Positions 5,503 through 42,504 of a DNA stretch of 42,504 bases are shown in pieces; the first letter of the stretch is position 1, and every line of letters begins with the position of its first letter. Source of the DNA: Deltaproteobacteria bacterium (GTDB taxonomy: Bacteria; Desulfobacterota; Binatia; Binatales; Binataceae); NCBI GenBank assembly GCA_021799495.1, contig JAJZAI010000029.1, positions 1 to 42,504 on the forward strand, read 5' to 3'. The translations under genes were made by a program, and so were the position numbers. The notes beneath the pieces were generated by a model. It saw only the letters and a program-made list of their open reading frames with translations. It was not told the origin of the DNA and did no database searches.

Positions 5503-6833
5503 ATATTCCGGAAAACCGGGGTTAGATGGTCGAGCGTGGCGATTGCGCCGCCGGCGAGGCTGGCAAACGCCGCACGCGCGCGGGCGCCGGCCGCGTGGCG
5601 CGCGGCGCCGTCGGCAAGCCATTCGCCGCAGACGATTTCCATCTCCGCGGCGCCTTCGATCACCCGGGCGCCGCCGGCGTTCAACAGCGCATCGCCAACC
5701 TGGCGCTGATTTTCATAGTGCGGACCAAAAATTACCGGCACTCCCGCCGCCGCCGGCTCGGCAAGGTTCTGTCCGCCGCGCGGCGGCGCGATGCTGCCGC
5801 CGACGAAAGCGACCGCGGCGCATCCATAAAGCGAGCGCAGTTCCCCCATCGTATCGAGCAGCAGCACGGACGCATCGCGAAACTTGAGATCGAGCGACAA
5901 CGGATCGTAATCCGCGGGGGGCAGCTCGCTCGCCCGCACGTACCTGAAACCGGCCGCTTGAATTTCGGCCGCGACTTCGCCGGCGCGATCGAGATGGCGC
6001 GGCGCCAACGCCAGCGCCAATCCGGGAAAGCGATCGCGCAGGTTATCGTACGCCGTCAGGCTCATGCGCTCCTCTCCGGGCGCGGTCGAGCCGGCGATCA
6101 GCAGCGGCCGTCCGCCGGCGAAATTACGCAACGCGAGCCGCGGCGGCGCCGGAGTATCGCCCGGATCGAACTTGGTATTGCCGGTGATCGCGACGATCCC
6201 GGCGGGCGCGCCGAGCGCGACAAAACGATCCGCGTCTTCGCGGCTTTGAACCAGCGCGATTTCGAGCCGTCCGAGCGCGGCGGCGATAAGCCCGTAAACG
6301 AGCTTGTAGCGGCGCAGCGAACGCTCCGACAGGCGCCCGTTCACGATTCCAACCCGCGCGCCGGCGCGGGACGCTTCGCCGATCAGATTAGGCCACAGTT
6401 CGGTTTCGGCGAGCAGCACGATTTCCGGCCTTACACGGGCGAGAAAGCCGCGCAACGCCGCGGGACAATCCAGCGGAGCCAGCAGGCACGCCGCGGCGCC
6501 TGGAATCCGGCGGCGCGCGGCGTCGCGGCCGGCGGCCGTCATCGCCGTCACCACCAGCTCGAATTCTGGAAATCGTTCGCGCATTCCGCGCGCCAGCGGC
6601 CGTATGGCTTCGATTTCGCCGACCGAAGCCGCATGCATCCAAACCCGCCGGGCGGCGCCCGTTATGGCAATCGGCGGGCGGCCCAGCCGCTCGCGGCGAT
6701 CGGGACCGCGCGAACCGCCCGCGGCCAAAAGCGCGAACGGCAACGCCGGGTACCAGAGCGTGCGATAGAGGGTTTCGAGCAGGCCCGCGGAGATGCCCAC
6801 CGGCGGACGGGCGGCGTGCGGCGCGGCGCTCAA
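5499..6833 (-). CDS. waaA: 3-deoxy-D-manno-octulosonic acid (Kdo) transferase
   Basis: This 444-residue GT-B glycosyltransferase (GT30) transfers Kdo from CMP-Kdo to the lipid A precursor at the cytoplasmic membrane. An N-terminal membrane segment (about 19-40) anchors it. The catalytic Glu lies in A-S-V-G-E (E73), followed by the A-E-T-E-L-W-P-N motif, and the C-terminal half has F-V-G-G-S-I and G-G-Q-N-L-A-E-P-A used for CMP-Kdo binding. The start is a TTG at 6833 that overlaps the msbA stop as TTGA, so translation is probably coupled. Whether one or two Kdo residues are added cannot be told from sequence. The gene lies between msbA and lpxK. Confidence 0.94.
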   Translation of the reverse strand: MSAAPHAARPPVGISAGLLETLYRTLWYPALPFALLAAGGSRGPDRRERLGRPPIAITGAARRVWMHAASVGEIEAIRPLARGMRERFPEFELVVTAMTAAGRDAARRRIPGAAACLLAPLDCPAALRGFLARVRPEIVLLAETELWPNLIGEASRAGARVGIVNGRLSERSLRRYKLVYGLIAAALGRLEIALVQSREDADRFVALGAPAGIVAITGNTKFDPGDTPAPPRLALRNFAGGRPLLIAGSTAPGEERMSLTAYDNLRDRFPGLALALAPRHLDRAGEVAAEIQAAGFRYVRASELPPADYDPLSLDLKFRDASVLLLDTMGELRSLYGCAAVAFVGGSIAPPRGGQNLAEPAAAGVPVIFGPHYENQRQVGDALLNAGGARVIEGAAEMEIVCGEWLADGAARHAAGARARAAFASLAGGAIATLDHLTPVFRNI

Positions 6834-8599
6834 TTTCCGATCCCGCCGGCCCCGCCCAGTTCCGGCGCGTCATGGAATTGGAGGCCGTGCAAGCGGCTGT
6901 ATTCGCGGCCAAGCGCTATCAACTGATCGTGCGTGCCGGTCTCGACGATACGCCCGCGCGCCAGCACGACGATTTGATCGGCGCGGCGCACCGTGGAAAG
7001 CCGATGCGCGATCACCAGCGTCGTGCGGTTTTCGATGAGATGCTCGAGCGCCTCCTGCACTTGCCGTTCCGAGTCGGAATCGAGCGATGAGGTCGCCTCG
7101 TCGAGAATCAGGATGGGAGCGTTTTTCAGCAACGCCCGCGCGATCGCCAGCCGCTGGCGCTCGCCGCCCGAGAGCCGGACGCCCAGCTCTCCGATCAGGG
7201 TGTCGTAGCCCTGCGGCAGACGCATGATGAAATTGTGCGCGTTGGCGGCCCGCGCCGCGGCGATTACGTCTTCGAGCGATTTGTCGGCCGCGCCGTATGC
7301 GATATTCGCGCGCACGGTGTCGTTGAAGAGAAATGTATGTTGGGTCACAAGACCAATCTGCGACCGCAACGACGCGATCGAGCATTGCCGAACGTCAACG
7401 CCATCGATCGTGACGCGGCCGCGCTGCACGTCGTAAAAGCGCGGAATCAAATCGGCGATCGTGGATTTGCCCGCTCCGCTCATCCCGACCAAAGCGACCA
7501 CCTTGCCCGCGCCGATTTCGAGATTGACGTCCTCCAGCACCCACTCGTCGCCGTACCGAAAGCTGGCGTGCTCGAGCGCGACGGTATGCATGCCGGGAGG
7601 AATAACGACCGGATCGGGCGCCTCCGGCACGTCCGACGGCTCGTCCATCATCTGGAAGACCCGTTCGGCCGCGGCGAAGCCGGCCTGGATGTTGTTGTTC
7701 GTGCGAGTGAGGCTCTTGAACGGCCGGTACAGCAGCAGCATCGCGCCGATGAACGACAGGAACACGCCGGGCGTGCGCGAACCCGCAATCACCGCGTGCG
7801 CGCCCCACCAGATTACCGCAACGATCGCGAACGCGCCCATCACTTCCATCGTCGGCCCGGTGATCGATTTGATGCGCGCGACGCGCATCTGGATTCGGAA
7901 CAGCCGGCGCAGTTCTTTCTTGAAGCGAACGCGCTCGTAGTCCTCCATGCCGAACGCCTTGACGACGCGATTGCCCTGATACGTTTCTTGCAACAGAACC
8001 GTCAGCCCGCTGAGCTGGCGCTGCGCGTCCTTCGTCATGCGCCGCATCCCTTGCGAAAACCGTACGACGGGAAGCACGGCCGCGGGAAACACCGCGATCG
8101 CGATCAGAGTGAACCGCCAATCAACGTAGAAAGCGCCCGCCATCACGGCGACCAGCCGCGTGCTGTCGCCAAACACGGAAAAGAGGCTGTCGACGCCCTG
8201 AACGGCGACGACCTGAACGTCGTTGATCACCCGCGACAGCATCACGCCGGTCGGGGTGCGGTTGAAAAATGAAAGCGACTGATTCTGCAGGGCTTCGTTC
8301 AGCTCGTCGCGCAAATCCACGGTGATTTTCTGAACCACGTAGCTTTCCAGATAATCCGCGCCGAACGACGCGGCCGCGCGTGTCACGAAAATTCCCAGCA
8401 GCGCGGCGGACAACGCCGGCAGCATCGCGACGCTGCGCGCGACCGTAAGCTGATTGGTGAAGTTGCGAATCAGCACGACGATCACGCCCTCGGTCGAGGA
8501 GAGCAGAATCATCGCCGTGAACATCAACGCCACGTATGGAAAGAAATACCGGCGCGCGTATTTCAGCAGCCGCCGCTGGAGCGGAGGGAGCTTCAGCAT
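6830..8599 (-). CDS. msbA: Lipid A exporter, MsbA-type ABC transporter (fused TM and ATPase)
   Basis: This 589-residue half-transporter has a six-helix exporter domain (about 15-310) joined to an ATPase domain. It would flip lipid A-core from the inner to the outer leaflet of the inner membrane as a homodimer. Walker A is G-M-S-G-A-G-K-S (372-379), the Q-loop is V-T-Q-H-T (418-422), the signature is L-S-G-G-E (476-480) and Walker B is I-L-I-L-D-E (496-501), all intact. Many ABC exporters look alike; the MsbA call rests on its place between lpxB and waaA. It overlaps lpxB by 7 bases and waaA by 4. Confidence 0.9.
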   Translation of the reverse strand: MLKLPPLQRRLLKYARRYFFPYVALMFTAMILLSSTEGVIVVLIRNFTNQLTVARSVAMLPALSAALLGIFVTRAAASFGADYLESYVVQKITVDLRDELNEALQNQSLSFFNRTPTGVMLSRVINDVQVVAVQGVDSLFSVFGDSTRLVAVMAGAFYVDWRFTLIAIAVFPAAVLPVVRFSQGMRRMTKDAQRQLSGLTVLLQETYQGNRVVKAFGMEDYERVRFKKELRRLFRIQMRVARIKSITGPTMEVMGAFAIVAVIWWGAHAVIAGSRTPGVFLSFIGAMLLLYRPFKSLTRTNNNIQAGFAAAERVFQMMDEPSDVPEAPDPVVIPPGMHTVALEHASFRYGDEWVLEDVNLEIGAGKVVALVGMSGAGKSTIADLIPRFYDVQRGRVTIDGVDVRQCSIASLRSQIGLVTQHTFLFNDTVRANIAYGAADKSLEDVIAAARAANAHNFIMRLPQGYDTLIGELGVRLSGGERQRLAIARALLKNAPILILDEATSSLDSDSERQVQEALEHLIENRTTLVIAHRLSTVRRADQIVVLARGRIVETGTHDQLIALGREYSRLHGLQFHDAPELGGAGGIGN

Positions 8600-9816
8600 C
8601 CGAGCATTTCCAGCGCCATTGCGGCGACCCGGTCGGCGGCTCCGGGCGCTCCGAGCCGCGCGCGCACCGCCCGCAGCGCCGCGGCGGTTTCGGAGCGATG
8701 CGGCTCGGACAACATCGGCGCTGCCGCCGCGGCCAGATTTTCCGCCGTGACTTCCCGCTGGATCAGTTCCGGAACGATTCGCCGGCCCGCGAGGATGTTG
8801 GGCATGCCGATAAATTCCACCCCATGCACCAGCATCCGCGCCACTTGATAGGAAAGCGATGACATTTTGTACGCGATAACCATCGGGATGCCGAGCAGCG
8901 CCGTTTCGAGCGTCGCAGTCCCGGACGCGACCAGGGCGAGTTCGCTGGCCGCAATAATACTATACGTGTCGTCGCGAATAATATGCATCCCGTCCAGTCC
9001 GCCCGGCGGCGCCAGCGCGCGCAGATCGTCTTCGTCCAGAGTTGGAGCGAGCGCGATTGCTGGCGTGAGCCCGTTGCGTTCACGCAAAATGCGCGCCGCG
9101 CCGAGCATCGCCGGCAAGAGATATCTCACCTCGGCGCGCCGGCTGCCCGGCAATAGCGCGAGCGGCCGCGCATCGGCTGGCAGGCCATGACGCGCAAGGG
9201 TTTCCGCGCGGCCCTGGGCGGGCGCGACGCGGTCGAGCAGCGGATGGCCGACGAAGGTTACGTCGCCGCCGGCCTGCGCGTAAAGGTCGGCCTCGAACGG
9301 AAACACCACCGCCATCTTGCGCGTGCGGCGGACCAGCTTGCGAATTCTTCCGCGCCGCCACGCCCATACCTGCGGCAGGATGTAGTAGAGCACGGGAACG
9401 CCCGCGCGGCGCGCCACGCCCGCGAGCATCAGGTTGAATTCGGCGTAATCGATCAGCACCAGCAAATCGGGCGGGTCGCCGCGCAGGATTTTCCTGAGCA
9501 TGCGGAAAGCGCCGGCCGTGCGGCCGATCGTCGAACTTAATTCGGCCAGCCCGAGCCCGGCGATATCCTCCATCCGCACCAGCGCGCGCACGCGGCGCGC
9601 CCGCATCCGCTCGCCCGCGATTCCGAACAGCTCGCACTCCGGCGCGCGGCGCAGCAGCGCGGCGGCAAAATCCGCCCCGTGCAGATCGCCCGACGCCTCG
9701 CCGGCGACGATCATCACACGGCGGCGGGCGCGCGGTTCGGAATGCTGGGACACGATCGGCGGAGGTTCGGCGGGCATCGGCAGAGGATTTTGATCGATAC
9801 GCGGGGGCGGCGCCAT
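8593..9816 (-). CDS. lpxB: Lipid-A-disaccharide synthase
   Basis: This protein of about 407 residues condenses UDP-2,3-diacylglucosamine with lipid X to give the lipid A disaccharide. It is a GT-B enzyme (GT19) peripheral to the inner membrane. The start motif G-E-A-S-G-D-L-H-G (39-47 from the chosen start), D-Y-A-E-F-N, Y-Y-I-L-P-Q-V-W-A-W, L-L-P-G-S-R-x-x-E and the late S-G-T-A-T-L-E and Y-K-M-S motifs are all typical. The ATG at 9816 is chosen because it lies 16 bases after the upstream stop and has a weak GGGGCG ahead of it. ATGs at 9861 (inside the SCO gene) and 9777 are possible. The N-terminal 30 residues or so are Pro-rich and not part of the fold. Confidence 0.94.
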   Translation of the reverse strand: MAPPPRIDQNPLPMPAEPPPIVSQHSEPRARRRVMIVAGEASGDLHGADFAAALLRRAPECELFGIAGERMRARRVRALVRMEDIAGLGLAELSSTIGRTAGAFRMLRKILRGDPPDLLVLIDYAEFNLMLAGVARRAGVPVLYYILPQVWAWRRGRIRKLVRRTRKMAVVFPFEADLYAQAGGDVTFVGHPLLDRVAPAQGRAETLARHGLPADARPLALLPGSRRAEVRYLLPAMLGAARILRERNGLTPAIALAPTLDEDDLRALAPPGGLDGMHIIRDDTYSIIAASELALVASGTATLETALLGIPMVIAYKMSSLSYQVARMLVHGVEFIGMPNILAGRRIVPELIQREVTAENLAAAAAPMLSEPHRSETAAALRAVRARLGAPGAADRVAAMALEMLGC

Positions 9817-9832
9817 ACGCCCCGCGCCGTGG

Positions 9833-10480
9833 TCATCCGCGGGCGAGCGCGCGATCGACATCGGCGATCACGGCCTGCGGCGGCGCCTGAAGGATGTCAT
9901 AGATGCGCAACTGCCGGCCGTCCGCGCCCAGCAGAAACGCCGTCGCCACATGATTGATCACGCCGTCCGGCTGGCGTTCGCGCTTGAGCCGGTAGGCTTT
10001 GAGCAGCGCGTCTATATCCGCGGGCTTTCCGGTCAGGAACAACCAGCCGGGGTAATCCGCCTGATGCGTCTTGGCGTATTCGAGCAGTTGCGCCGGATGG
10101 TCGTGCCGGGGATCGATCGTCACCGACACCATCGTCAGCTTCGAGCCGAGCTCCGGCCCAAGCAGGCGCGCGATCTGAACGAAGTGCGCGGTCAGCAGCG
10201 GGCAAACGCTCGGGCATTGCGCGTAAATGAAATCGATCAGAACCGGCTTGCCTTTGAGCGCTTCGAGCGCGACCGGCCTGCCGTGTTGGTCGATCAGGCT
10301 GAGCGCGGGCAGGCCGTTCGCGGGATTGTTAGCGGGATATGAGCCGTCGGAATTCTGAGCCGCGTCCGGGGGCGGCGGCGCGATGTTGCTCTGGCATCCG
10401 GGCAGCGCGCCCAGACTGAAGACTATCGCGAGCGCGATCGCAACCCGGCGGAAGCGATCGGTAAACGTTGGCCTGCGCAT
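9833..10480 (-). CDS. SCO1/SenC family copper-binding lipoprotein
   Basis: This 215-residue thioredoxin-fold protein of the SCO1/SenC/PrrC family has the copper-binding C-P-S-V-C motif (C89, C93) and the distant ligand His in N-H-V-A (H177). The N-terminus is a lipoprotein signal with the lipobox L-P-G-C (Cys29), so it should be anchored on the periplasmic side. The family delivers copper or manages thiols for the CuA site of cytochrome oxidase. Its place inside the lipid A operon, between the Gfo/Idh/MocA gene and lpxB, is unusual, and no oxidase gene is in the window. The ATG at 10480 gives the cleanest signal peptide. An in-frame ATG at 10522 only adds 14 residues with no support. Confidence 0.92.
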   Translation of the reverse strand: MRRPTFTDRFRRVAIALAIVFSLGALPGCQSNIAPPPPDAAQNSDGSYPANNPANGLPALSLIDQHGRPVALEALKGKPVLIDFIYAQCPSVCPLLTAHFVQIARLLGPELGSKLTMVSVTIDPRHDHPAQLLEYAKTHQADYPGWLFLTGKPADIDALLKAYRLKRERQPDGVINHVATAFLLGADGRQLRIYDILQAPPQAVIADVDRALARG

Positions 10481-34643: not shown

Positions 34644-34944
34644 TGGCAGTGCGCTTTCAGCGATTCACGGAGGCGGGCAAACAGCGAAACAGCCTCCTTA
34701 CGCTCCTTTTAGCACAGGCGTCTCATCCCAACCACGCCCACCCAAGCCGAGTAGTGCCCTAATTTGGGCATCAAAATACTTCACTCAGCGTCGGTGCGAG
34801 GCGCTTCTCCTGAGGTGACTGGCTGGCAAAACCTTTCTACTGTCTGCGAGCTATGAGATAATAGATGTGGAAGCTGCGGATTTTTCGCAGACCATCCTCT
34901 TAACTTTTGCTCGACGTTCGGATCACTTATGCGCGGATTGGTGG

Positions 34945-35214
34945 ATGATGGCACAAGCAAGAAGAGTCCAAGTCCCTTTTCAGGGGAAAATGGTGATGGG
35001 AATGGATGTTCCAATAGAGGAATCGACTGAAAGATGGAGCGAGATCAAGCTTGCTGACGGCACGATATTGCGCGTGAAACAGGCTGTTGCGGCAGTGGTA
35101 AGACTTGACCAAACGTGGGACGCGGAAGGAAACCCGGTTTACGTAGTTAGGAGTGGCCCTGCATTAGCGATCGTGCAAGTAGACGAGAGTCTTCGGAAGC
35201 CTTCGACCAATTAA
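34945..35214 (+). CDS. Small conserved hypothetical protein
   Basis: This 89-residue protein has a core E-S-T-E-R-W-S-E-I-K-L-A-D-G-T-I-L-R-V-K followed by a V-x-R-x-D-x-x-x-D-x-E-G-N-P-V-Y-V-V pattern that I recall from unnamed bacterial proteins. The fold looks all-beta. The frame is open further up (ATG at 34867), but that extension lacks the conserved style. Either ATG at 34945 or 34948 is likely; the ribosome-binding site is weak. Base composition is AT-richer than the flanking genes, and two more hypothetical genes follow at once. The 220 bases before it hold no gene I can support. Confidence 0.6.
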   Translation: MMAQARRVQVPFQGKMVMGMDVPIEESTERWSEIKLADGTILRVKQAVAAVVRLDQTWDAEGNPVYVVRSGPALAIVQVDESLRKPSTN

Positions 35215-35218
35215 GAGA

Positions 35219-35701
35219 ATGCGCACTGATCAAAATCATTTTTTGCTGATGACTGTGACTTGTTTTGCGTTTGCGACAGCGCCAGCAATTACAACCGGAA
35301 TGCTGGAGACAGAAGCATTTACGACAGCTCCTCGTTGTATCTCTGAAACTTCGTGTTCGTCTGTTGAATCTCGTACCGCCGACTTAGACAAAACGCTCAC
35401 AGAATCCGTATTTTTGGTCGCGCCAGCAGCCAAATTTGCTAAACTCGCCAAGGAATGGCACGAAGAAACGCGTTACTCTTCTTCGGCGATTGGCATGGTA
35501 CTCCACCCAGCGTATCAGGAAATTATGCAAATGCGGGAAGAGGCTCTGCCGTACATTTTGAAGGACTTGGAAGAGCACGGTGGGCACTGGTTTTTCGCGC
35601 TCCAGACTATAACTCGCACCGTGTTGGGTGAACCAAGCGACAGCTTCGAAACTATCCGGCAATTATGGTTGAATTGGGGACACACAACTGGCAAGTTCTG
35701 A
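35219..35701 (+). CDS. Uncharacterised protein with W-H-E-E-T and H-P-A-Y-Q motifs
   Basis: This 160-residue frame starts 4 bases after the preceding stop. The C-terminal 85 residues carry a conserved-looking set: W-H-E-E-T, S-S-S-A-I-G-M-V-L-H-P-A-Y-Q-E-I, M-R-E-E-A-L-P-Y-I-L-K-D-L, H-W-F-F-A-L-Q-T-I and W-L-N-W-G. I recall this from a widespread unnamed family of about 110-residue proteins whose gene is often followed by one with an N-C-I-A-W-A motif, as seems to be the case here. The first 75 residues, with a hydrophobic stretch at 8-26, are not part of that core and could be a signal or anchor. Function unknown. Confidence 0.65.
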   Translation: MRTDQNHFLLMTVTCFAFATAPAITTGMLETEAFTTAPRCISETSCSSVESRTADLDKTLTESVFLVAPAAKFAKLAKEWHEETRYSSSAIGMVLHPAYQEIMQMREEALPYILKDLEEHGGHWFFALQTITRTVLGEPSDSFETIRQLWLNWGHTTGKF

Positions 35702-36170
35702 TCAACCACCCGCTATCGAGCGAAAATTCCCGCAGCTCAAAGCAAGCGGATACCAAGAAACTAGCCCCTGCGCCGATGCCCCGAATTGTATCGGTTATGC
35801 CCTGCGTGATGGTAAAAACTGGGATCCCATCGCGACGTGGGGTGTGCGAGGTTATCACTGACCGGTTTATGTCGCGGGCGAAGCTACCATAGCGACCATA
35901 TCCGCGATTTTCGCCCGAGAACAGAACTATGAATCTTCAATGGACGGAAATCTCGAAGCGGGATACGAAAAGATCGCGATATATTATCGACCAGGTACCG
36001 TCGATTTTCTTCATGTCGCGCGTCAATTGTCGGATGGTCGATGGACGAGCAAGCTAGGCAGAGGCGAAGATATCACTCACAATACGGTTGAAGGGCTAGA
36101 AGGGGTCGGCGCATATGGGCGCGTTGCCAGATTTATGCGTCGGTCGTTGTCAGAAGAAGCGAATGGTTGA
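35688..36170 (+). pseudogene. Interrupted partner gene (N-C-I motif protein, cut by in-frame TGA)
   Basis: Read in one phase, this stretch codes L-A-S-S-D-Q, then R-K-F-P-Q-L-K-A-S-G-Y-Q-E-T-S-P and A-P-N-C-I-G-Y-A-L-R-D-G. A TGA stop follows at 35859-35861, and the same phase continues to L-E-A-G-Y-E-K-I-A-I-Y-Y, H-V-A-R-Q-L, W-T-S-K-L-G-R-G-E-D-I and G-R-V-A-R-F-M-R-R. These blocks, in this order, resemble an unnamed family (possibly Pfam DUF7689, unverified) encoded next to the W-H-E-E-T protein. The family region between N-C and L-E-G-Y looks altered. The phase has no standard start codon near 35688; it overlaps the end of the upstream gene. The fragment from the ATG at 35940 could be translated alone. 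Confidence 0.6.
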
Positions 36171-36586
36171 GGAAAAATTCTCTAAAGACAACATTTCGCC
36201 TTTTGAACGGCTCTAACGCCTTATTCGGGGGCTGGCCGTGGTTCTGAAAAAGGAAATCGAAGCTGAAGAGGCGAAGTGGCGGGCAAATCGAGAGTTGCAG
36301 AAGAAACCCGAAAAGGTTTGACTCGCCGGCGCTTGCTTCTTTGCTGGCGCCCCATCCCATTTAGCAGGAACCGCCTCTTCCTTACCCGCCAATTTTTGAT
36401 AGGTGAGCCGGTGTCCGGCTAGTCCGTTCAGTAATTCCAGAAATCGGCCCTAATCATCATTCTTTCGTTCGTTGAAGCGAAACGCCTGTTCCTCCAAATA
36501 TCGGAACAAACGGAAGGGCTTTGCACTTTAAATCAAGACCGGCGGCGGCTGGCCGGGGCGGCGCGTTCAGTGCTATCTGTCGGGAC
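36171..36586. other. Intergenic stretch, AT-richer, with a tiny charged frame
   Basis: No convincing gene. A 27-residue frame from a GTG at 36238 to TGA at 36321 is lysine- and glutamate-rich (E-I-E-A-E-E-A-K-W-R-A-N-R-E-L) and could be a remnant of a helical protein tail. The rest up to the LLM oxidoreductase has no repeat or hairpin that stands out. Confidence 0.5.
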
Positions 36587-41483: not shown

Positions 41484-42143
41484 TTGAAAATCGCACGTCA
41501 TGATTGGCCTTTGGCTCTCGACCAAGAAGATGTCAAGCGCAACGCGCGGTGAAAAAATGGCTAACTTTTGTGGGTCTATATTCCTTCGTCGTCCGAGAAA
41601 GGTAATCTGTGTTAAGAGAGAACGTGAGTCGGTTTCTATAGAGACAATCTTTCGACCTGTAGCGACTGATTTTTAGGTTCGATCTACACAACGGCGTGTT
41701 GCCGCTAATGATAACCGGGCCGAACGCGCCCTTGCGAAGTTCAGAAACCTATATTTGCAGGAGGAGGATAAGGAGAGTTTATATCATCAAATCACATTAC
41801 CCGCGCATGCATGCAAACGAAACCTGTCGCAATCGAACCAAGCCTCTCACGCCAGCCACTTCAGGTTGTTGTTGACTAATATTGTCTCTTAAAACATACA
41901 TAACAATGTATCCGTAGAAAATGCACGAAGTTGAGCCGATTTTTGCAAAGTGAATCAGAATTAGCCGCTTTTTCCCGCACTTGGATCCGAAGACTCGGCT
42001 CTCTTGGCCCAAAAGTTGCTACATCGCTTATCATTGCCTATCTGTGATTGAATGTAGCCTGCAAGCGGCTCACCTTTACTGCCAAACCATTCACGTTACA
42101 GTCAACCGTTTTGTCGTGCTCCACGACATTCAGATTTATACTC
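41484..42143. other. Gene-poor AT-rich stretch after tRNA-Leu
   Basis: No gene over about 40 codons is convincing. A strong AGGAGGAGGA ribosome-binding-like run (41759-41768) has no start codon at a useful distance. The composition differs sharply from the GC-rich left flank. I find no copy of the tRNA 3' end inside the window. The bases 42303-42504 are likewise empty of supportable genes. Confidence 0.6.
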
Positions 42144-42302
42144 CTAAAATAGCCAAGAGAACGGGAACGGACTGACTCGCCGACACTTTGAACAACGGTA
42201 CGATTCGGTCAGAACGATCCTCGCCGCACTGTGCCGTGATATTTGAAACTTTGACTTACATTTGGGACACACCAGACTTTGACTAAGCACTTCGTCCAGC
42301 AT
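42144..42302 (-). CDS. Small zinc-ribbon hypothetical protein
   Basis: This 52-residue frame has C-P-K-C-K-S-K-F (12-19) and R-C-S-K-C-R-R (36-42), two Cys pairs spaced as in a zinc ribbon, followed by a short hydrophobic tail F-P-F-S-W-L-F. The start is the ATG at 42302. The open frame continues upstream for about 25 codons and contains a third pair, C-G-Y-C, but has no standard start codon there, so the gene may be 5'-truncated. I do not recognise a family. Composition is AT-rich like the surroundings. Confidence 0.35.
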   Translation of the reverse strand: MLDEVLSQSLVCPKCKSKFQISRHSAARIVLTESYRCSKCRRVSPFPFSWLF

Positions 42303-42504
42303 GTCTTCTGTTTTCCCTTTGCCCTCAACGAGACAATAACCACATGTACTCCGAACGTAGAAAGCGTTTCTTGCGCTATCGGGTGGTGTCTGTCAATTGG
42401 TAGAAAAGCAGTGGCATCCGAGATCCGCGAGAGTTGCGCAGTTGAATTATCAAGTTGCTACTAGGCAGCCTCCGGATGTTCGCTGATGGTGGTCAGGTTC
42501 TGCC

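Follow-up and report, generated by a model that had tools for sequence, protein, structure and literature searches.

DUF7689 cassettes with an exchangeable third component: a candidate type of tripartite toxin–antitoxin system

Do the three small genes that lie in an AT-rich patch of a Binataceae contig form a system and, if they do, of what kind? The window, which is the whole stretch of 42,504 nucleotides analysed here, comes from an 89-contig assembly. The original prediction, made from the letters alone, had marked out a patch of low GC holding three uncharacterised genes, the last two of them recurrent neighbours, and had guessed at a co-translated and undescribed system. The drop in composition is indeed there, since GC per 500 bases is 0.488-0.518 over 35001-36500 and mostly 0.6-0.7 in the flanks. 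At 41501-42500, GC is lower still (0.456-0.482) and the listed ORFs reach at most 71 residues. The features discussed below are the following.

35001..36500, no strand: AT-rich patch with the cassette, supported by its GC and by the lack of gene 2 in the six congeners searched; its neighbours are an MFS exporter gene (minus strand) and an LLM-type oxidoreductase gene, as named in the original prediction
34945..35214, plus strand: gene 1, for a small beta-rich protein of the kind X, the third components that replace one another between loci
35219..35701, plus strand: gene 2, predicted antitoxin
About 35219-35434, plus strand: variable N-terminal tail of gene 2, followed from about 35435 by its helical core (from the alignment)
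35673..36170, plus strand: gene 3, DUF7689 frame, predicted toxin, interrupted; profile match at 35760-36140 with one TGA
35859..35861, plus strand: in-frame TGA, at a position that is Trp in 54 of 58 relatives compared here and a gap in the other four
35940..36170, plus strand: residual ATG ORF, which covers the C-terminal part of DUF7689 and lacks the conserved Cys

The cassette of the window and its interrupted third gene

The motifs quoted in the original prediction are all present in the sequence, and the four-base gap between genes 1 and 2 is as described, with the stop codon of gene 1 at 35212-35214 and the ATG of gene 2 at 35219. The end of the cassette has to be moved from 36321, which by eye is the stop of a short ORF further on, to 36170, where gene 3 ends. 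The term "uncharacterised" suits genes 1 and 2, which have no usable match in Pfam, NCBIfam, PADLOC or PHROGs; gene 3 belongs to a Pfam family, DUF7689 (PF24738), albeit one whose function is unnamed. The last two proteins were therefore not assigned to known, unrelated families, as neither is in a family of known function. Weak matches of the window proteins (Vat acetyltransferase at E 0.0036, HAD-IB, PHROGs) were far below cut-off or at E >0.003 and were ignored.

Gene 3 had been taken for one intact ORF, and the TGA that interrupts it had been missed. When the frame is read across this stop, with the letter X in place of the TGA, it matches DUF7689 with an E-value of 2.2e-24 and 86.9 bits, above the curated cut-off of 22.6 bits, and the C-terminal ORF alone scores 62.6 bits. 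The TGA sits between the conserved Cys and His, so that the A-P-N-C-I and W-T-S-K-L-G-R-G-E-D-I blocks fall on either side of it. Upstream of the stop, ATG and TTG are lacking from the frame, and its one GTG (35844) comes only after most of that half has passed. Thus, the overlap announced between genes 2 and 3 applies to the open frame, whereas no ORF of gene 3 that begins at an ordinary start codon reaches gene 2. Because the predicted toxin frame carries a nonsense codon and lacks an ordinary start, the toxin copy of the window is probably a disarmed and decayed remnant, next to helper and antitoxin frames that are still open.

We also weighed the idea that gene 3 of the window works through readthrough of the TGA, or that the stop is an assembly error. 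Y25 and W49 are the sole changes among the 19 conserved positions listed, C27 and H98 are retained, one on each side of the stop, and the 89 contigs of the assembly were counted in favour of an error. However, the missing ATG or TTG ahead of the stop stands against this idea, as do the high divergence of the neighbouring gene 2, the most distant sequence of alignment A5 (31% identical to its first row, compared with 42-63% for the others), and the broken DUF7689 genes of other loci, and we find it distinctly unlikely. Recoding of TGA as Trp was considered given that the stop falls on a conserved Trp, and was set aside since locus L093 carries a TAG at the very same Trp and since the window frame has no ordinary start.

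Breaks are not confined to the window. Eleven of the 53 loci, the window (L006) among them, have a DUF7689 gene that is interrupted or truncated (the others are L010, L085, L086, L093, L094, L185, L187, L189, L190 and L191), versus two loci for gene 2 (L094 and L173, the latter in the tail). Without L085 and L094, nine loci have a broken DUF7689 and one a broken gene 2 (sign test, p 0.02), and assembly errors may add to the breaks in both genes. Within the family, gene 2 was found in one other genome, G121, out of 57 genomes searched in all.

The gene 2-DUF7689 pair

The claim that genes 2 and 3 are recurrent neighbours was borne out from both sides. Starting from DUF7689, gene 2 is directly upstream of it, or fused to it, in 50 of 53 loci, or in 45 of 48 when L051, L052, L057, L063 and L071, from genomes already reached via gene 2, are left aside. 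Three loci depart from this: L085, L095 (the RHS case) and L188, whose contig begins inside the cassette. Starting from gene 2, DUF7689 or a remnant of it lies downstream in 30 of 30 loci, four of which had supplied the query and one of which (L044) has its remnant 1.3 kb away. When the genes are separate, gene 2 comes first. We thus observe two small adjacent genes that are kept together, as in a type II toxin-antitoxin system, and the guess of a co-translated, undescribed system appears to hold for the last two genes.

The two domains also occur in one protein and in the reverse order in L008, L009 and L047 and, by eye, in L076. The L047 fusion (5839-10060; Bacteroides plasmid NZ_CP041231.1, which is conjugative) has a lipoprotein-like start, by eye, and stands two genes ahead of a MACPF protein. 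Two other unusual proteins were noted: in L042 (2613-5270), gene 2 forms the C-terminus of a protein of 885 residues whose other domains are HSDR_N and N6-methyltransferase, DUF7689 coming immediately after it, and in L175 (3090-3990) it stands in frame behind a stretch that looks sigma-factor-like by eye. In L044, a protein with a BrxC-like helical domain is encoded upstream.

In the window's phylum, 9 of 395 genomes contain DUF7689; a second and a third phylum sample, both centred on genomes first reached via gene 2, have it in 11 of 294 and 8 of 199 genomes. It is also present in 21 contigs of IMG/VR, a collection that includes proviruses, and in 11 plasmid records, all from Bacteroides or Phocaeicola; the annotated phage records contained none. 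Our literature search returned no paper on DUF7689 or on TIGR04255, the main family of third components described below. Altogether, the cassette family is probably a widespread, undescribed type of toxin-antitoxin system with exchangeable third components.

What could the two proteins be? The structure model of a DUF7689 relative has a mean pLDDT of 93.9. Foldseek returned nothing for it at E <=0.001. In a second structural comparison, the leading neighbours were papain-like, NlpC/P60, CHAP and C39 enzymes (Z values up to 5.8); they include AvrPphB, the papain-like toxin/immunity pair 9l5u, the CDI toxin 8ssk/8ssm and Tae3. Since these Z values are modest, we regard a papain/NlpC-like fold as probable, short of proven. 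All 58 aligned sequences have N26, C27, H98, W108, K111 and G113, so that a conserved Cys precedes a conserved His as in papain-like and NlpC/P60 enzymes. H120, present in 56 of 58 sequences, could be the third catalytic residue; several papain-like families use a Cys-His-His triad, according to a review (PMC10318531). In L095 (1366-3258), a DUF7689 homologue ends an RHS-repeat protein with an open frame of 4777 residues. The end of RHS proteins is a usual site of toxin domains.

For a gene 2 relative, the model is all-helical with a mean pLDDT of 86.4. Foldseek returned no match at E 0.001 and the best VIA Z was 4.5, with no known antitoxin fold among the matches. A HEAT-like reading of this fold found no support in the searches.

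Three phage contigs, L045, L046 and the 484-kb record LR756508, also carry gene 2, with no DUF7689 in the flanks of 3-5 kb that were examined. These phage copies have 6-10 residues before the core, i.e. they are tail-less, and the three cases fit captured antitoxins. Two further scans made with them revealed no new phage orphan.

The third component and the tail of gene 2

Gene 1 is a part of the cassette and no bystander, because its homologues directly precede the gene 2-DUF7689 pair in four further loci (L088, L171, L173 and L177), and another four loci (L103, L105, L106 and L107) have them ahead of DUF29-like proteins. Its start is inferred as ATG 34945 or 34948 in an ORF open from GTG 34867, and the profile of its family matches the window at 34960-35202. 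Behind the gene 1 homologues, the DUF29 domain begins at residue 83 (L103), 61 (L106) or 75 (L107) of the open frame, and the tail of the L105 protein was read by eye; in plasmids, the four DUF29 genes examined, of 83 records matched, start 15-27 bases ahead of the match. No obvious toxin gene was seen in the gene 1-DUF29 units. Of the five gene 1 relatives found in the family, L104 is followed by no DUF29 and by no gene 2. The gene 1 family occurs in 3 of 198 genomes of the window's phylum, window included, and the plasmid search found no relatives. Compared with solved chains, its profile had a designed protein as best match (E 0.0034), which we took as chance.

Gene 1 belongs to one of three classes of proteins found in this place. 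A recognised X stands directly upstream of gene 2 in 37 of the 73 distinct loci: TIGR04255 in 25, a COMMD-like protein in 7 and the gene 1 family in 5. Two of the TIGR04255 proteins were tested against the NCBIfam model (E 2e-42 and 7.1e-43). The profile of the COMMD-like X from L004, L005, L031 and L035 matches PDB 9q6a with an E-value of 7.9e-28; it is unrelated to TIGR04255 when the two profiles are compared. COMMD-like X proteins were found in 1 of 198 genomes of the window's phylum and in 5 of 187 genomes of another phylum sample, where three precede gene 2-DUF7689, one precedes a different pair and one is a fragment; the plasmid search detected no relatives. Profiles of all three classes gave no SecB match against solved chains, a comparison made with sequence profiles. 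In eukaryotes, COMMD proteins act in endosomal sorting. The literature searched held nothing on bacterial COMMD-like proteins, wider searches on COMMD brought nothing relevant, and the publication behind PDB 9q6a was not found.

The presence of X goes with a tail on gene 2. Counted from the first possible start, and with starts that are uncertain and loci that are related, a tail of at least 45 residues is found in 36 of the 37 loci with X, and in the 37th (L173) the tail is open in another frame. It is found in 17 of 30 loci without recognised X, 6 of these 36 loci being unusable (Fisher p 5e-5; Mann-Whitney only p 0.035). The count omits the longer proteins of L008, L009, L042 and L175, the contig-edge cases L187 and L094, and ten duplicates; L011, L012 and L096 are not separate loci, as they are second pieces of the same gene. 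From 36/37 versus 17/30 it follows that X implies a tail and that a tail does not imply a recognised X. There may be further X families beyond the three recognised here. A like pattern was seen for DUF29, whose proteins carry a stretch ahead of the domain behind gene 1 homologues and hardly any in the four plasmid genes examined.

The most frequent X is also common to other toxin modules. In two phylum samples, 16 of 198 and 29 of 189 genomes encode TIGR04255; 48 of the 56 matches were classified by the genes that follow, eight of the 38 from the 29/189 sample being left out. The genes downstream are gene 2-DUF7689 in 6 loci, PIN in 5, PemK/MazF-like in 2, HicA-like in 3 and putatively HEPN-like in 2; 11 loci encode a QDCD protein, 10 a WDGYG pair and 9 were given no class. 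Pfam backs the four PIN proteins submitted (E 5.8e-19 to 7.7e-8) and both PemK proteins (1.6e-13), and the HicA-like proteins stay below its cut-off. A Vibrio plasmid has TIGR04255, next to it a hypothetical gene and then a zeta toxin gene (Pfam 3.1e-12). The same X is thus shared by different toxin families, as it precedes DUF7689, PIN, PemK and zeta. By eye, most of the proteins encoded between X and the toxin are extended at the N-terminus, and the extension often contains a hydrophobic stretch.

The commonest class behind TIGR04255 and a tailed protein is an unnamed protein with a QDCD-like motif (L111, L120, L123, L125, L139, L140, L142, L144, L148, L149 and L155), two of which were submitted to Pfam and had no match. 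The WDGYG pair, whose first protein has a W-D-G/S-Y motif, was seen in L117, L150, L153, L157-L162 and L165, and that of L117 had no Pfam match. Because TIGR04255 precedes several different toxin modules, both sets of pairs are candidate toxin-antitoxin families.

A proposed mechanism, its rivals and the closest known systems

With some reserve, we favour reading the cassette as a tripartite toxin-antitoxin system, with DUF7689 as predicted toxin, gene 2 as predicted antitoxin and X as predicted helper that binds the tail. The constant pairing, the papain-like structural neighbours and invariant residues, the RHS case, the association of tail and X, an X common to other toxin modules, the tail-less phage copies and the more frequent breaks in DUF7689 speak for it. 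The modest fold scores, a gene 2 model with no known antitoxin fold, the long tails at loci without recognised X, the lack of a SecB match, the fusions, the gene 1-DUF29 units and the empty PADLOC result weigh against it, and the breaks in DUF7689 may be assembly errors. From the pattern of these loci, we infer an enzyme activity, toxicity, neutralisation, tail binding and a trigger, which would work together as follows. DUF7689 would be a small intracellular cysteine hydrolase of papain/NlpC fold, held inactive by gene 2, whose translation would be tightly coupled to that of the toxin. Gene 1 would be one of a set of interchangeable third components, together with TIGR04255 and the COMMD-like proteins; these would attach to the variable tail at the N-terminus of the antitoxin and protect the antitoxin or maintain its fold. 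Once the third component is occupied, for instance by a phage protein, or lost, the tailed antitoxin would be degraded, the hydrolase freed and growth stopped.

A defence module would account for part of the data as well: X would be a sensor or guarded protein, and gene 2 would tether the DUF7689 effector and release it upon a phage product or damage. The origin of X from unrelated families agrees with such a role, as do the fusion of gene 2 to HSDR_N and N6-methyltransferase in L042 and the BrxC-like protein upstream in L044, but each of these two contexts is a single locus. Moreover, the association of tail and X, together with an X common to ordinary toxin pairs, is what a tail-binding helper predicts, and we hold the sensor or guard to be unlikely. 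Still less probable to us is a secreted effector aimed at other bacteria with its immunity protein. One DUF7689 homologue does end an RHS protein, and the lipoprotein-like fusion (by eye) lies near a MACPF gene on a conjugative Bacteroides plasmid; yet the DUF7689 proteins examined start at or near the domain and show no trafficking region, and the order with gene 2 first and X ahead is the arrangement of toxin-antitoxin operons.

The fold class of DUF7689 takes in many cell-wall and processing enzymes, and could thus suggest a peptidase or amidase that has house-keeping duties and works beside a partner or scaffold, outside any conflict. Such a gene would hardly be so rare and patchy in the three genome samples, so often broken, or accompanied by a gene 2 that the six congeners searched lack; X being common to PIN, PemK and zeta modules also speaks against it, and we give this explanation very little credence.

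The tripartite toxin-antitoxin reading can be carried further, in a form that we put forward tentatively and consider possible rather than probable. TIGR04255, the COMMD-like proteins and the gene 1 family might be independent non-SecB helpers that read an N-terminal tail and are swapped among unrelated toxin pairs; bacterial relatives of COMMD proteins would then guard antitoxins, and phages would carry tail-less antitoxins as a counter-defence. If the tripartite reading itself is true, DUF7689, the unnamed family of gene 2 and TIGR04255 would each receive a function, and the logic of toxin-antitoxin-chaperone (TAC) systems would reach beyond SecB.

Several known systems resemble the cassette. 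Type II toxin-antitoxin pairs (PIN/VapC, PemK/MazF, zeta) likewise consist of two small overlapping genes with the predicted antitoxin first, and in loci of this analysis their PIN, PemK and zeta toxins follow a TIGR04255 helper as DUF7689 does; gene 2 and DUF7689, however, belong to no described toxin-antitoxin family of the libraries searched. Papain-like and NlpC/P60 toxins (9l5u, Citrobacter CdiA-CT 8ssk/8ssm, Tae3) are similar to DUF7689 in model fold and in the order of Cys and His, whereas DUF7689 has no sequence match to a relevant solved chain and mostly no secretion part. The prokaryotic COMMD-like protein MBK5214510 (PDB 9q6a, 9q6c, 9q6d) is matched by the COMMD-like X profile described above; such an X precedes gene 2-DUF7689 in other loci, while the window has gene 1 in its place.

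The closest counterparts are the TAC systems, such as HigBA1 with its SecB-like chaperone in M. tuberculosis and CmdTAC in E. coli, which have three genes as here. According to PMC5105189, TAC antitoxins bind a dedicated SecB-like chaperone through an extension that chaperone-independent antitoxins lack and that is still functional when grafted N-terminally on test proteins. For CmdTAC, PMC11618068 describes a phage capsid protein that pulls the chaperone off, after which the antitoxin is degraded. A further likeness to both sources (PMC5105189, PMC11618068) is that one helper family serves several toxin families. An antitoxin extension that is tied to the helper and missing in many helper-less relatives may be another, although here 17 of 30 loci without recognised X have a long tail. 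By contrast, the predicted toxin is here a cysteine-hydrolase-like domain and the helper gene comes first. The TAC helper is SecB-like, whereas TIGR04255, COMMD-like and gene 1 proteins have no SecB match by profile, and the TAC extension is C-terminal whereas the variable extension of gene 2 is N-terminal. Since their helpers are not recognisably SecB and their tail is at the opposite end, these cassettes are TAC-like and set apart from TAC.
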